Shown here: positions 1 to 24,126 of the stretch, in pieces
Numbering within the stretch: the stretch's first letter is position 1
Layout of the letters: every line of letters begins with the position of its first letter
NCBI RefSeq assembly: GCF_900660575.1
Contig: NZ_LR215008.1
Span: 248,001-312,000, forward strand
Direction: 5' to 3'
DNA length: 64,000 nt
Origin: Mycoplasmopsis pulmonis
GTDB lineage: Bacteria; Bacillota_I; Bacilli_A; Mycoplasmatales; Metamycoplasmataceae
Notes under the pieces: model-generated
What the model was told of the DNA's origin: nothing
Seen by the model: only the letters and a program-made list of their open reading frames with translations
The model's database searches: none
Program-made: the position numbers and the translations under genes

Positions 1-397
1 AGACTTTATCGACAAAGTTGCAGAAAAAATTATTGATGGACATGCAGTTGTTTTAAACTCAATAATTATTCTTGACACAGTTAGATTCGACCAATCATCA
101 ATTTTACCTATTGCAGTTGCTAACCCAAAACTAATGCCTCCAATTAACGTTATTGAATGAGACACATTCATAACAGGAGAAGAAAACTTAGTTATTATTG
201 ATACTTTCATTCAAATGATTGAAAACTCTCTATCAAGAGGACATGAAGTTGAGTTTTTTGAAAATTCACTTTTTGTTAGAAACATTGAAGGTATTACCTC
301 ACTTTTTATAAATGAAGAAGCTTCAAGGTACTTTAATTCAAGAATTACTAAAAAATACTCTTCAGCTAAAAAACAAAGTAGTAGTTTAATAAAATAA
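1..397 (+). CDS. F1-like/X0 ATPase operon protein, C-terminal part (possible gamma-like subunit)
   Basis: Open from the window edge in the frame starting at base 2, ending TAA at 395-397; the 5' part lies outside. One TGA reads as Trp. The visible ~131 residues show a beta-strand/helix segment with SSILPIAV followed by an EWD stretch, and end in a basic helix. The order of an LP motif, a variable strand, then long helices resembles the C-terminal half of F1 gamma, but the similarity is faint. It sits 51 bases ahead of the next operon gene. Known mycoplasma F1-like clusters hold seven genes: alpha-, beta-, gamma- and epsilon-like proteins plus three unique ones. Six are seen here, so the missing one (a multi-spanning membrane protein in known clusters) should lie upstream. 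Whether this gene or the next is gamma-like cannot be settled by eye. Confidence 0.6.
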
Positions 398-448: not shown

Positions 449-1597
449 TTGAAAAGAAAAGAAATTGAAGAAAGGAAAAATAATTTTGAATTTTTCTCAA
501 ATTACATTGATATTTCCAAAATCTCATTGTTATACAATTTAAATAAAGAAATTCAAGATTTAAACACTATTAAATCCCTAAGAAAATCACATAGTGTTTT
601 ACTTTCTAAAATCAATGAAAAGTGATTAAAAAAATATAACAATTATTACTTAAATGTTAATAAAAAACTACCTTCTCTATATATATTAGTGGATGCAAAG
701 CAAGATGATGAATATGCTGAAATTGCTTTAAATAAATTAAAAGAAATCATGGTAGAAAGAATTACACTAAATGATTATGTAATTACCATTGGTTGAAAAA
801 CTCATAAATTAGCCGAGTCAATTGGCTTTCAAATAATTGACAAATTAGACTTTAGTGCCTTTGAAAAAATTGATCTTCTAAGTGAAAGACTCTCATCAAT
901 TTTAGAAATTGGACTTCAAAATTATGTCTTTAGTAAATCAGTTTTACTTATTGCAGAAAATGACATTGAAACTAAAGGGATTATTGAAAAAATTATTATT
1001 CCTTTTGACAAAAGTTCACTTGAACAAAAAATGGAAATTCTTGATGATGACGGAATACCTATTAAAGATGATGAATTTGAAGAAGATGAAAATTGAATTA
1101 GCCATTATGAAGATATTATCAATGCAATTGATCTAAGAAAAAACAAATGAAAACCTGATGTTGTAGGTTTTTACAACAAAATGTCAAAAGCTTTAATTAA
1201 AAGTGAATTTTACGAAATTAAAATTAAAAGAAACATTCAAACTTTAAAGTTACAACTTGCAATTCTTGAAGATAAAAAAAGAAATGTTAATGAACAACTT
1301 GAAGATCTTCAGAAAAAATGAAATAAAGTTAGAAAAGAAGAAACTACTAATAAATCATTAATTCTTTTTGCAGCTTTTAAAGCTAAAAAGAAACAACTTG
1401 AATTATCAGATCTAGAAGAAAAAAAAGCTGAGAAATTAGCTGACAAAATTAGAAAAACAAATGCTATTAAAAATAAAGAGCATATTCTTTTAAAAGAAGA
1501 AGAAAGTCTAACAAAAGCTACAACTAATTTAAAAAAAGTCAAAACTAAAGAGCCACAACTAGAAAAAAGAAAAAAGAAAATTAAGGAAGAAATCTAA
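449..1597 (+). CDS. F1-like/X0 ATPase operon protein, coiled-coil (possible gamma-like subunit)
   Basis: 382 residues if started at the TTG at 449, which lies 5 bases after AAAGGAG; no in-frame ATG nearby has an RBS. Several TGA codons read as Trp. An N-terminal helix is followed by an alpha/beta core (strands around LYILVDA and VITIGW), an acidic stretch (DDDGIPIKDDEFEEDE), and a long C-terminal Lys/Glu-rich coiled coil from about residue 250 to the end. Two helical ends around an alpha/beta core is the F1 gamma layout, and this gene is third from the start if one gene is missing upstream. The TAA overlaps the next ATG (TAATG), so translation is probably coupled. The alternative is that it is one of the unique F1-like cluster proteins. 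Confidence 0.7.
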
Positions 1598-2166: not shown

Positions 2167-5100
2167 ATGAACAAGAAAAATAAAAAAGCTTTGTTAATAG
2201 CTCTTCCAATAGTTTCTTTAGTAGCAGCTTCTACTACTAGTGCTTTTGTCCTTACTAATAGACCAAAACAAGAAATTCAAAACCAAATTCAAGACCAAAG
2301 ACAAAGTGTTAATCTAAAAAATATTAAATATCAAGATTCAGTAAGTCAAAATATAGCTGGAGGAATTTTAGACAATCCCAAAGTTTATTTTAAACTTGAT
2401 GAAATCTTACCTTTGGAAATTGAAAATGGTCAATGAAAAAATATTGTTGAAAATTTAAATTTAATTCCAAATACTTCCCCTGCTAAAAACCAACTTTTAG
2501 AAATCATGAAAAATCTTGAGTACTATAGACTTTGAGAGAGTTTCAAAAGAGGTTCACAAGAACTTGATTTAATTGAAGATTTTAGAAAAAAATTTGCTTT
2601 AGATTTTAATTTCGAAAGTGTTGAACAAATTACAGGTGGAAATGAAAACATTAAAAAAATCATTAATGAACTTAATGGTTTTGTTGAAGGTACAAGAGTT
2701 AACATTACTGGAATAGGTAATACCTCAGCTAGTGCAAACTCTCCTGATTTTATTCCTGGGGCAAAAATAGTTGATTTGTCTCTTTCGGTGGCTTCTTCTA
2801 CAACTAATGTTAATTTAAATGATAGATATAACACATTAGTTAAAATAGCTGAAATTGACACTAGTTTAAACTCTGACGTAGTTTTTAACTTTGAATATAG
2901 TGGAACAAGTGTTGTTGGAACTAAAAACGGAAAGCTAATTATCAAAAATGAAAATGGTGAGCTTCAAAGTGCTAATTTTTCTCTTGAAAATTATTCAAAA
3001 AACTTAAACCTTTTTGGAAGATGAGAAGGTTTTACAGGAACTCAAGATTCAAACCAAGGTTTTCCAACAACTATAAGAAACTTTATAATTGTTAGAACTC
3101 TTGAAAGTTTAGAAGTCTATGTTAGAGCTGAACAAAATGAAAGAATTCAAAACATCCAAGTTGAATCAGGAAAAACAGCTGTTAAAAAATTTGGAATTTT
3201 AAATTCTCAGCTAAGCTCTCAACCTATTATTAGTTCACAATCATTTAGTTCAATTAGATTTTATGGAGTAGGAATTAACACTCAAAATTGAACAAATCGA
3301 GAAGGCTTTGATGTTTATTTAGGAGATAAAACTACTTTTGAAAATCCTATTTATGCAAAATCTTCAAATCAAGATTATTCAGTTGGTAATTTAGTTCAAA
3401 TAAAAGATGAAAATGGAGATGTTAATCTAAAACTTAGCTATGACAAAAGCTCTGAAGATAGAGAAAAAAGATTTGAAATTAGCCCTAACTTAGCAAAACT
3501 TCCAATTCAAAGTGAAGATCTTAACAAAGTTAACCTTAGTGTAAGTCCTTCTTCATTTGACAATGGTAACTATGCTAAATTTTCAGTTGGTTTTAACAAA
3601 GATATAATTAGCTTTAACTCAGCTCAGGCTAATAACTCATCTACTTATAATCCATTAATTTCTCTAGATGCCAAAGACTATGCTAAAAAAATATTCTTTG
3701 AGCCACCTTCAATTTCTACAAGTCTTGACTTTAGTGCTCAAGAAAAAAATATTCAAGGAGAAATTTTTGTTGACAATGAAATTCAAGCTAGAAAAGAATT
3801 GGCAAGAATTTACAACAAATGAGCAATAGATTCAACTCAAAACTATGATTCAAATAAATATAGCAAAATTGATTTTTCATATAACAAAATAACTTCAGAA
3901 CAAAGTAATGGAAGATTTATAAAAATTAAACAAAATCAAGTTACTAAATTTTCAAATTTTGGTCCAGAGCTTTACAAACAACTTTCAAAAGATTATGTTG
4001 AATATGCAAATATTATTAAACAACTTGATCCTCAAGCAGATGTTTCTAATTTAAGTCCCTTTATTCTTTCAGTTCTAAATGAAGAAACAGCCTCTGATGT
4101 TATTAGATCTCAATTCTTTAGTAAAATAAGCTCAACTAATCTTCAACCAATTATTAACAGAATAGTTGAAGCACTTAACGATAGAACAAAAAATAGCCAA
4201 ACTAAAGATGCCATTTATGAAAAAGAAATGGCCAACATTATTGAGCTTGTATATAGATGAATTAACAGTGAGTTCAAGAAAAACTTGGATGATATTTTCC
4301 TACGTTCTCTAAGAGGATTTATAGAAAGTTCTAATAAAAACCAAGCTTTAAGTTTTAACAAAGTTTTAAACCTAGATGTTGTTAAAACCAATGAACATCA
4401 AGTAAATGTAAATGGAACAACTCAAAAAGTTAAGCTTTTTTCACTGGTTCCTCAAGTTCAATCTTGAATTTCAAAACCTGATGGAAGTGCAGCTAGTGCA
4501 AGTGACATTCTAAAAAGCATTATTGATTTTATCTACAAAGATGAACTAGGAACTTCATTTTTTGCCTTTAGTAATTCAATAGCAACTTATAGATCATTTT
4601 TACAACAAGAAAATGAAAGCCAAGATGATTTAAACATAAGAAGATCACAGCTTTATTCTAGTGAATATTTAAAAGATAGAACAAGAGCAATTGAAGCTGC
4701 TAATTTATATATTGAATTGTTTAAATTAGTAGGAATTGATTGAAATGCTAAAATGTTTGGATTTTTAGAATCAGGACAAACAATTAACTTTGGAACACTA
4801 AAATCTTCTCAAACAAATGATCCTACATTTTCAATTGAAGGATTTATTGAAGAATTTGCCTCTAAACTAGAAAATACTTCAAGAGACAATTCAAATCTAA
4901 TAGATACTAAAGAAAGAGAAAATGAAGTTTCAATAAAAATTTATGATAAAAAAATAACTTCTGAATATTTAAAAGTTCTTTTATCAGGATCAAATATTTA
5001 CAATTCTTTAAATGCTAGATTAAATTCAATTTCTAATTTAGCAAATACAGATGATGAAAAAAGAGTTATTAATCTAAGACTAAGAGAGTCAATACCTACT

Positions 5101-5481
5101 TTAAATGTTGTGGCAAATTATGCCCTTGTTGCAGGAAATGTTAATGTTAAAAATTACATTGATAATTTTGTTAATGAACAAAGCCAATTATCACAGGCTC
5201 AAAAAATCATTAATGAAATTGATCTTTCTAAACAACTAGTTTTTAGAACAGTTGATGTTCAGTCATTTTTATCAGCTGGAACTCAAGCTGTAGATCAAAT
5301 ATTTAAATATTCAATGCTGATTTTTTCATTAATTTTCATGGTAATACCTGCATTTTTATTAGTGACAAAAAGAAAAACAATCAATTTTAAAACACAACCA
5401 TTTTTAAAATCAATATTAACGGGTCTTTCAGTTCTTGGAGCTGTTGTGCTTGCTGTGGCTCTATGATTGATTCTAATATAA
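2167..5481 (+). CDS. Large membrane-anchored protein of the F1-like/X0 ATPase cluster
   Basis: 1104 residues reading TGA as Trp; the ORF is open over 3.3 kb. An N-terminal signal anchor follows a KKNKK basic start (hydrophobic about residues 10-29, no lipobox Cys). A long, Ser/Asn-rich domain of about 1000 residues follows, presumably outside the cell. Two transmembrane helices lie at about 1047-1070 and 1079-1104, separated by a short basic loop (TKRKT), with the protein ending in the membrane. Three membrane segments match the 3-TM protein described for F1-like clusters as part of the proposed X0 sector. RBS AAAGGGG lies 12 bases after the previous stop; the alpha-like gene follows after 14 bases. 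Its surface domain would connect the cytosolic F1-like motor to the outside. Confidence 0.8.
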
Positions 5482-5495
5482 GATAAGGAGAAAAT

Positions 5496-9168
<3,673 letters not shown>

Positions 9169-21924: not shown

Positions 21925-24126
21925 TTATCTTTTTCTACCAAAGAATCAAAATCTTTTTTTGTGAGGAGCTGCAACTTCGTCTTCACTTAAGATATCTCTT
22001 GAAGTGTTCTCTGTGATTTCTTGTTCTAGTTCATGTGTTTTCATAGCTAATAAATCACTTTCAATAACTTCTGTTGGTTCGAAATTTTCTTGAGTTGATC
22101 TTTCAATTTCATCACTTGTTTGGAAAGCTGCACTTTGTAAATCTAAATCATCAAAAGTTGAACTTGGAGTATTGAAATTATTTGTATTAAAACTTTCAAA
22201 ATTTGATGTTTCTAAGCTAGATGTTTCTAAAGTTGTGTTTTGAGGCTCTGGATTTTCTAAGTCATCAAAAGAATTTGTTGTTGTCTTAGGAATGTCAGAA
22301 ACTGTAAAACTATTGGTTTGAGAAGAAACGCTTTCATTAGTTTCTGTTGACATTTCCATAGTTTTTTCACTAGTTTGATCTAAGTGTTCAAAGCTTTGAG
22401 TAGGAAAACTTTCTTCTAATGTTTGGAAACTAGTCTCTTCTGTTGGGAAAGTAGATTCTCTTGTTTGGAAACTTGTTTCTCTAACATATTGTTCTAAAGT
22501 AGGCTTTAAATCATCGTTTGTATGTTCAAAAGTATTTGGAATTAAAGTTTCTTTAATTTCTGTTTCTTGAGTTTGTTTTAAATCTTGAAAGTCGCTTGTT
22601 TTGAACTCGTTTGAAAATTCAGAAGAAAATGGATTTGTTGAAGTTAAAAATGAACTAGTTGAGTCACTTTGCTCTTCTGTTTTAAACATATCTTGAGAAT
22701 CAAATTCTGGATTTTCATAGTTATTAATTAAATTCTCTTGGTTTTCACTTGTAGCAAAGTGTTCTTGAGTAGAACTTGTAAATTCACTAAAGTTTTCAGT
22801 TGTGTTTTGTGAAAATGTTTCTTCAGCCATTGGTGAATCAAAGTTTTGGCTAAATTCTTGACTGAATTCTTGACTTTGAACTTGTGCGTCATATTGATCA
22901 TATGTTTGTTCATAGTTTTGAATTGCATCAATACCTGGAAGAACTTTTGATTCAATAAATTCTAAGCTAGCTCCACCACCTGTTGAAATGTGTGAGAAAA
23001 GCATTTGTGCATTTAATTTTTCAATAATAGCAATTGAATCTCCTCCACCAACAACTGAGTAAGCTCCTACTAATTGAGAAATAGCTTCAACAACAGCTAA
23101 ACTACCACTTTGGAATTCTTCAAATTCAGTTACACCCATAGGTCCATTTCAAAAAATTGTTTTAGCAGGGCTTATTCCTAGTTTAGTATCACCTTTGATG
23201 TATTTGTGAATTAGTTCAATTGTTTTAGGTCCAACATCCATACCAATAAATGTTTGAGGTATTTCTAGTGGGTTTTCATTGTTGAAAATTGGTTTTGCAT
23301 TTTTGAATTTTTTAGCAAGAGCATGGTCAATAGGTAAAATAATTTTGTGGTTGTATTTTTTTAGAAATTCTGTGGCAAATTCAATTTTATCTTGTTCATA
23401 AATAGAATCACCAATTCCAATACCTTGAGCTTTTAGGAATGTATAAGCCATAGCTCCACCAATAATTAATCTATCAACTTTATCAATTATTTTTTCTAAA
23501 ACATTTATTTTGTCTGAAACTTTTGATCCACCTAAAATAGCCACAAATGGTTTTTCTTGTTGTTCCATTAATTTCCATAAGGCATTAACTTCTTTTTGTA
23601 CCAAAATACCAAGAGCTGATTCTTTAATGTTACTTGCAATACCAACATTTGAAGCATGTGCTCTATGAGCAGTTCCAAAAGCATCATTAATAAAAACATC
23701 ACCTAGAGAAGCTCAATATTTTCCAAGCTCAGGATCGTTATTAGTTTCAGCTTTATTATTTAGGTCTTCAAATCTTGTATTTTCAATTAATAATACATCT
23801 CCAGGTTTTAATTTTTCAATTGCACTTTCTAATTTTTTTCCTCTTGTTTGATCTACAAATTTTACAGGTGAGTTTAAAAGTGAAGCTAGAGCTTCTACAA
23901 CAATAGATAATGATTTTTTCTCTTTGTCTTCTTTTGTTTTTACTCTACCTAAGTGAGATAATAATATAATTTTTCCACCGCGCTCTTGAACATATTTAAT
24001 TGTTGGAATAGATTCTTCAATTCTCTTTAAAGAAGTTATTTTTTTACCTTTTAAAGGAACATTTAAGTCTAGTCTAATCAAAACCTTTTTATCATTTAAG
24101 TTCAAGTCAGTTATAAGTTTTTTCAT
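21925..24126 (-). CDS. pgk: Phosphoglycerate kinase with ~330-residue C-terminal extension
   Basis: 733 residues against about 395-415 for PGK; three TGA-Trp codons. The catalytic part (1 to ~403) is complete: LIRLDLNVPL, LLSHLGR, ILGGSKVSDK, TIFWNGPMGV and STGGGASLEF. It makes ATP from 1,3-bisphosphoglycerate. After PGIDAI the frame runs on without a stop into a Glu/Ser/Thr/Gln/Phe-rich tail (about 404-733), probably disordered, with a short repeat of the SFQT..E.SFPT kind (plus-strand 22380-22470), ending in a basic aromatic tip KKRFWFFGRKR. The tail is not a frame artefact: TAA/TAG are absent for 1 kb. RBS GGAGG 5 bases before the ATG. Tail function unknown; a docking role is proposed in the findings. 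Confidence 0.95.

Follow-up and report, generated by a model that had tools for sequence, protein, structure and literature searches.

The only phosphoglycerate kinase (PGK) of Mycoplasmopsis pulmonis, encoded in the 64,000-nucleotide stretch of DNA analysed here (the window), continues beyond its catalytic domain into a long acidic tail that is predicted to be disordered, evolves under selection, and belongs to a kind of extension confined to lineages carrying the type 2 (G1-ATPase) motor. A PGK associated with such a motor is known already; the long tail on the PGK of motor lineages is the new part. We tentatively favour, with a little under an even chance, a dual function for this PGK, in which the folded domain would dock on the motor, and the disordered tail would not be the motor dock but a tether reaching a second partner.

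The PGK gene and its C-terminal tail

The gene is a single open frame in which three TGA codons are read as tryptophan, one of them in the C-terminal tip, and the complete PGK running without a stop into a tail of about 330 residues, as described in the earlier note, was thus recovered. The usual PGK chain stops at the end of the PGK domain, at about 395-415 residues, which is customary and not required for membership of the family; with 733 residues the window PGK lies beyond this range, the tail accounting for about 329 residues after the core. The full-length protein matched PF00162 with 467.7 bits against a cut-off of 27, over the whole profile (1-379 of 379), and was the single PGK match in a genome-wide search. 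The nearest PDB chain was the PGK of the M. mobile twin motor (9io5_O, E 1e-147). A terminator-like hairpin (21905-21874) lies just 3' of the PGK stop; such sites were equally frequent in shuffles. A frameshift or assembly artefact as the source of the tail was ruled out, the tail being common to four genomes and under selection.

Table 1. Position of the PGK gene, its parts and the motor genes in the window.
Feature	Position	Strand	Basis or remark
PGK gene, whole ORF	21925-24126	-	733 codons, uninterrupted, genetic code 4
PGK catalytic module, residues 1-404	22915..24126	-	Pfam PF00162 at residues 5-394
Acidic C-terminal tail, predicted disordered, residues 405-733 (start approximate, ~405)	21928..22914	-	Frame continuous with PGK; composition
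SFQT/TFPT/SFQT/SFPT repeat block, residues 552-576	22399..22473	-	4 units, shuffle test
Basic-aromatic tip KKRFWFFGRKR, residues 723-733	21928..21960	-	K/R concentration
GliD (bridge subunit), 3' part	1..397	+	9io5_R "G1-ATPase subunit D", E 6e-83
G1-ATPase gamma subunit	449..1597	+	9io5_G, E 1.6e-56
Gene 5 (type 2 cluster), orthologue of MMOB1650	2167-5481	+	Intact, 1104 aa
G1-ATPase alpha subunit	5496..7085	+	PF00006; cluster position conserved in g1 and g14
G1-ATPase beta subunit with N-terminal extension	7072..9168	+	9io5_A, E 9e-223

The tail contains 21% D+E, 5% K+R, 28% S+T, 15% N/Q and 9% F, with a net charge of -52. Its charge-hydropathy score of -0.27 falls on the disordered side, compared with +0.20, on the folded side, for the PGK core, and this composition predicts an intrinsically disordered chain. 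The Pfam search gave no domain match in the tail (best E 0.33) and the genome-wide search no second copy of it, which ruled out a duplicated element or a paralogue of another protein.

Two local features noted earlier were examined within the tail. The SFQT/SFPT repeats are real, the [ST]F[PQ]T unit recurring at residues 552, 559, 566 and 573 to give four copies where 0.14 are expected (0 of 20,000 shuffles reached four), encoded by a 21-bp tandem repeat at 22420-22482; they form a short block of about 25 residues and do not make up the whole tail. The basic aromatic tip was borne out as well, the last 11 residues holding 6 of the 18 K/R of the tail (hypergeometric P 4e-6). Counterparts occur at the corresponding place in relatives of the window's genus (KKVGFWKRLFGKK and KKRGFFSKLFKKK), while in three or more tails of a second motor-bearing genus the basic-aromatic element is internal instead of terminal (KKKRRLFSFWK, KKRFGFFGKK and KKKLFGFWNKK). 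The helical hydrophobic moment of the tips is no higher than in shuffles; an amphipathic-helix reading was therefore dropped, and the tip is described as basic-aromatic only.

The motor genes and the M. mobile complex

The extended F1-like beta subunit that had been pointed out in the same window was identified as G1-beta (Table 1). Judged by the matches of G1-beta, gamma and GliD to the M. mobile structure, orthologous genes for these twin-motor subunits lie in the window and its flank, the GliD gene starting about 540 bases upstream of the window. Behind the type 2 cluster come eutD and ack, an order also published for M. pulmonis and M. mobile. Gene 5, intact in the window, is interrupted by a stop in strain UAB CTIP, and three other M. 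pulmonis strains are without that stop; the window thus probably represents an M. pulmonis strain different from UAB CTIP. The alignment of G1-beta to 9io5_A starts at query residue 117, and residues ~117-210 correspond to the region of the M. mobile beta N-terminal domain (NTD) and linker. The N-terminal region of G1-beta (7072-7701, + strand) also gave a weak Rho_N-like match at residues 139-175 (E 0.11), which suggests a SAP/HeH-like helical fold for the putative PGK dock.

In M. mobile, the PGK MMOB4530 is a component of the twin motor (PDB 9io5 chain O; PMC8406192, PMC11864180). Its C-terminal domain contacts the N-terminal domain of G1-beta, and the motor-bound PGK protrudes laterally and is flexible; both ATP supply to the motor and help in the formation of chain sheets have already been proposed for it (PMC8406192, PMC11864180). 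The motor chains line the inner membrane; isolated chains form sheets, with swaying lateral protrusions assigned to PGK/MMOB1620 for which lateral interaction was suggested. GliE is a 112-residue protein, MMOB3660 in M. mobile. The proposal of a PGK sitting on an F1-like motor and supplying ATP locally is therefore right in kind and already known, having been published for M. mobile (PMC8406192, PMC11864180); the window encodes the orthologous machine, and the part that did not stand is the assignment of the dock, which in the M. mobile complex is the folded domain and not the tail.

MMOB4530 has a stated length of 511 residues, and the atomic models cover only 203-204 residues of its C-terminal domain. 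Reading the sequence through PDB alignments, up to residue 505 of 511, we found an acidic extension of about 110 residues (...NENDDEFDIEDEELDSLP) that is absent from the atomic models. A basic-aromatic element is missing from this extension as far as it was read (residue 505 of 511), and the tip is thus not a general feature of these tails. The literature searched makes no mention of a C-terminal extension on the PGK of M. mobile or M. pulmonis, and no experiment on a PGK tail was found in it.

Distribution and evolution of PGK tails

Tail lengths were taken from direct translation of the DNA in the window's genus (g1) and in the second motor-bearing genus (g14), both belonging to a family (f1) of 135 genomes. 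Within f1, a G1-beta with the long N-terminal domain was found only in g1 (4/4) and g14 (12/12, one a partial match). PGK tails longer than 50 residues are present in all four g1 genomes (329, 327, 325 and 306 residues), in 7 of the 11 readable g14 genomes (at least 52 to 320 residues; the PGK of the twelfth is cut by a contig end) and in none of 66 motor-less genomes, so that only motor lineages have long tails. One g1 genome (G121) had appeared tail-less, with an open frame of 402 codons; this was an artefact of a TGA codon, and direct translation gave 710 residues with the tail. Together with the extension of about 110 residues in MMOB4530, the search among relatives proposed in the earlier note showed that the tail is not limited to one strain. 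The 66 motor-less genomes, also read directly, have 1-13 extra residues in 65 cases and 37 in one (G055). The extension of G055, which has no type 2 motor (L004/L047), ends in KTLFCKLFGWLHKK.

The g14 tails measure 320, 282, at least 232, 106, 89, at least 84, at least 52, 36, 33, 19 and 4 residues. The shortest belong to motor genomes, with 4 extra residues in G133 and 19-36 in G132, G123 and G134; these PGK genes end in a stop codon and, where enough sequence was available, no tail frame continues behind it, so that the motor does not require a tail.

In the close g1 pair G119/G120, dN/dS was 0.146 for the tail (310 codons) and 0.021 for the core, which indicates that the tail is translated and constrained, less than the enzyme. 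The tail of G000 is similar to those of the other g1 members with z values of 1.2-2.0, barely above composition-matched shuffles, and the G119/G121 pair gave a z of 7.8. Across g1 the tail sequence drifts, with length, acidity and tip retained; a length kept at 306-329 residues with a sequence that is not kept is as expected for a tether.

The acidic character reported in the earlier note holds for the window, for g1 and for M. mobile, but not for g14, where the majority of tails are basic and rich in K/T/P, most of the long ones with a net charge of +8 to +32. The g1 tails and most g14 tails, of opposite charge, cannot be aligned, and among the longer g14 pairs the tail dN/dS was 0.35-0.8. 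In a PGK tree M. mobile joins g1 (support 0.95) and g14 is not joined to them, the backbone being weak. The tails thus probably arose independently twice, as far as sequences can tell, and, with no more than two or three lineages concerned, the association of tail and motor rests on few independent events. Residues common to both motor lineages cluster at positions 214-290 of the PGK C-terminal domain (15/20, the strongest of 21 clade pairs) and might mark a common docking surface; the loop, however, is also found in G007, a motor-less genome of genus g5.

Type 2 motors are known from four species in published lists, and the combination of a tailed PGK with a long-NTD G1-beta constitutes a lineage-wide sequence marker that pointed here to g14 as a second genus. 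This genus (L198-L205, L059-L069) is mostly uncultured, one member being the uncultured Mycoplasma Batch1_idba_bin.247 (L075). It has a reduced type 2/G1 cluster made of GliD, gamma, a 1640-type protein, alpha and beta; no recognisable homologues of MMOB1610 or MMOB1650 were found in the g14 clusters read.

In two g14 genomes (G128 and G131), a KTQT[LIM]-like motif occurs both in the PGK tail (L041, L043) and in the N-terminal linker of G1-beta (L060, L059). Such repeats are more numerous in the PGK tails than in shuffles, and a partner common to tail and linker is possible in these two genomes.

Additionally, two other genomes, G122 (L210) and G001 (L209), encode F1-like alpha/beta pairs whose beta subunit is without the long N-terminal extension and whose PGKs are untailed. 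These beta subunits resemble G1-beta about as closely as type 1 does, or a little more closely (50% identity). Ahead of alpha/beta, G122 has a gamma-like gene and a 1166-residue protein, and no GliD was recognised there.

Possible roles of the tail

According to the dual-function reading, the folded part would be both the only PGK enzyme of the cell and a motor subunit, its C-terminal domain plugging, as we infer by homology with M. mobile, into the extended G1-beta at its N-terminal domain, and PGK would decorate the surface of the motor chain. The 329-residue tail would leave the motor-bound PGK and reach a distant second partner, with the basic-aromatic element at its end as the most likely contact. 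The likeliest targets would be the membrane that the chains line, on its acidic cytoplasmic side, or a neighbouring chain in a sheet, and the tail may help to position or space the motor chains. The contour length of 329 residues is near 120 nm by arithmetic (0.36 nm per residue), sufficient for contact with the membrane or with a neighbouring chain. G122, with an F1-like cluster in which neither GliD nor the beta extension was recognised, has an untailed PGK, which is consistent with a tether. We treat membrane binding by the tip as a candidate contact, because its amphipathicity is within that of shuffles and M. mobile is without the element up to residue 505. A tether to membrane or chain is the most likely function of the tail, followed by a spacer or sheet contact and then by a passenger.

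The tail might alternatively make lateral contacts between chains, holding sheets together, or serve as an entropic spacer; in either case the acidic, repeated body would act and the membrane would not be touched. The sheets formed by M. mobile chains and the swaying PGK/MMOB1620 protrusions fit this explanation, as does an acidic body that g1 shares with M. mobile, which is not the case for the tip. We nevertheless consider it only an outside candidate, the charge being reversed in most long g14 tails and the tip, the best-conserved motif in g1, being unexplained by a pure spacer.

It is somewhat more doubtful that the tail is a passenger under weak constraint, which arose by loss of a stop codon and expansion of repeats and is tolerated with no role. 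The tail dN/dS of 0.146 in G119/G120, the 306-329 residues retained across g1, the recurrence of the tip and the lack of a comparable tail in all 66 motor-less genomes read all argue against a passenger, whose expected marks are nonetheless present in the fast evolution of the longer g14 tails (0.35-0.8), the tandem repeats, the unrelated sequences of the two lineages and the variable length in g14.

Docking of PGK to the F1-like motor by the tail itself, which the earlier note had proposed, is improbable in spite of the association of tails with motor lineages and the KTQT-like motif that PGK tails and beta linkers share in G128 and G131, since the solved M. mobile complex docks the PGK C-terminal domain on the beta-NTD and motor genomes with very short or no tails exist, G133, with only 4 extra residues, being one in which the tail cannot serve and thus cannot be a general dock. 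A cytoskeleton, the other partner named in the earlier note, or some further structure may still be bound by the tail.

The tail, borne by a subunit that sits on the outside of the chain, would be a concrete, deletable candidate for what holds the chains under the membrane or to one another, and for where force exits. In a wider generalisation, the sole glycolytic PGK of gliding mycoplasmas would have acquired, on two or more occasions, a long disordered extension with a basic-aromatic element, forming an elastic link from the G1-ATPase chain to the membrane or an adjacent chain, and a metabolic enzyme would supply a rotary-type motility machine with ATP and tether it structurally as well; this seems to us rather unlikely as a whole.

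Short Lys/Arg runs with Phe, Trp or Leu, at or near the end of a disordered segment, are known from the MARCKS effector domain and the C-terminal membrane-targeting sequence of MinD. The tip resembles these membrane segments without being homologous to them, and its amphipathicity is not above that of shuffles. The bacterial PGK-triosephosphate isomerase fusions (NF010569) likewise have a C-terminal extension after PGK, but the window PGK is without a triosephosphate isomerase domain: only positions 3-396 of the 645-position profile were matched, with 455 bits against a cut-off of 883, the match ending with the PGK part, and such a fusion was ruled out. The closest known system is MMOB4530, orthologous over a stretch that starts at the first residue and runs past the PGK domain (E 1e-147) and bearing, like the window PGK, an acidic extension at the C-terminus, in M. 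mobile with FPS/FPT-like elements, which measures about 110 residues in M. mobile whereas it reaches about 329 in the window; association with the motor is proven for the M. mobile PGK and would, by homology, apply to that of M. pulmonis.
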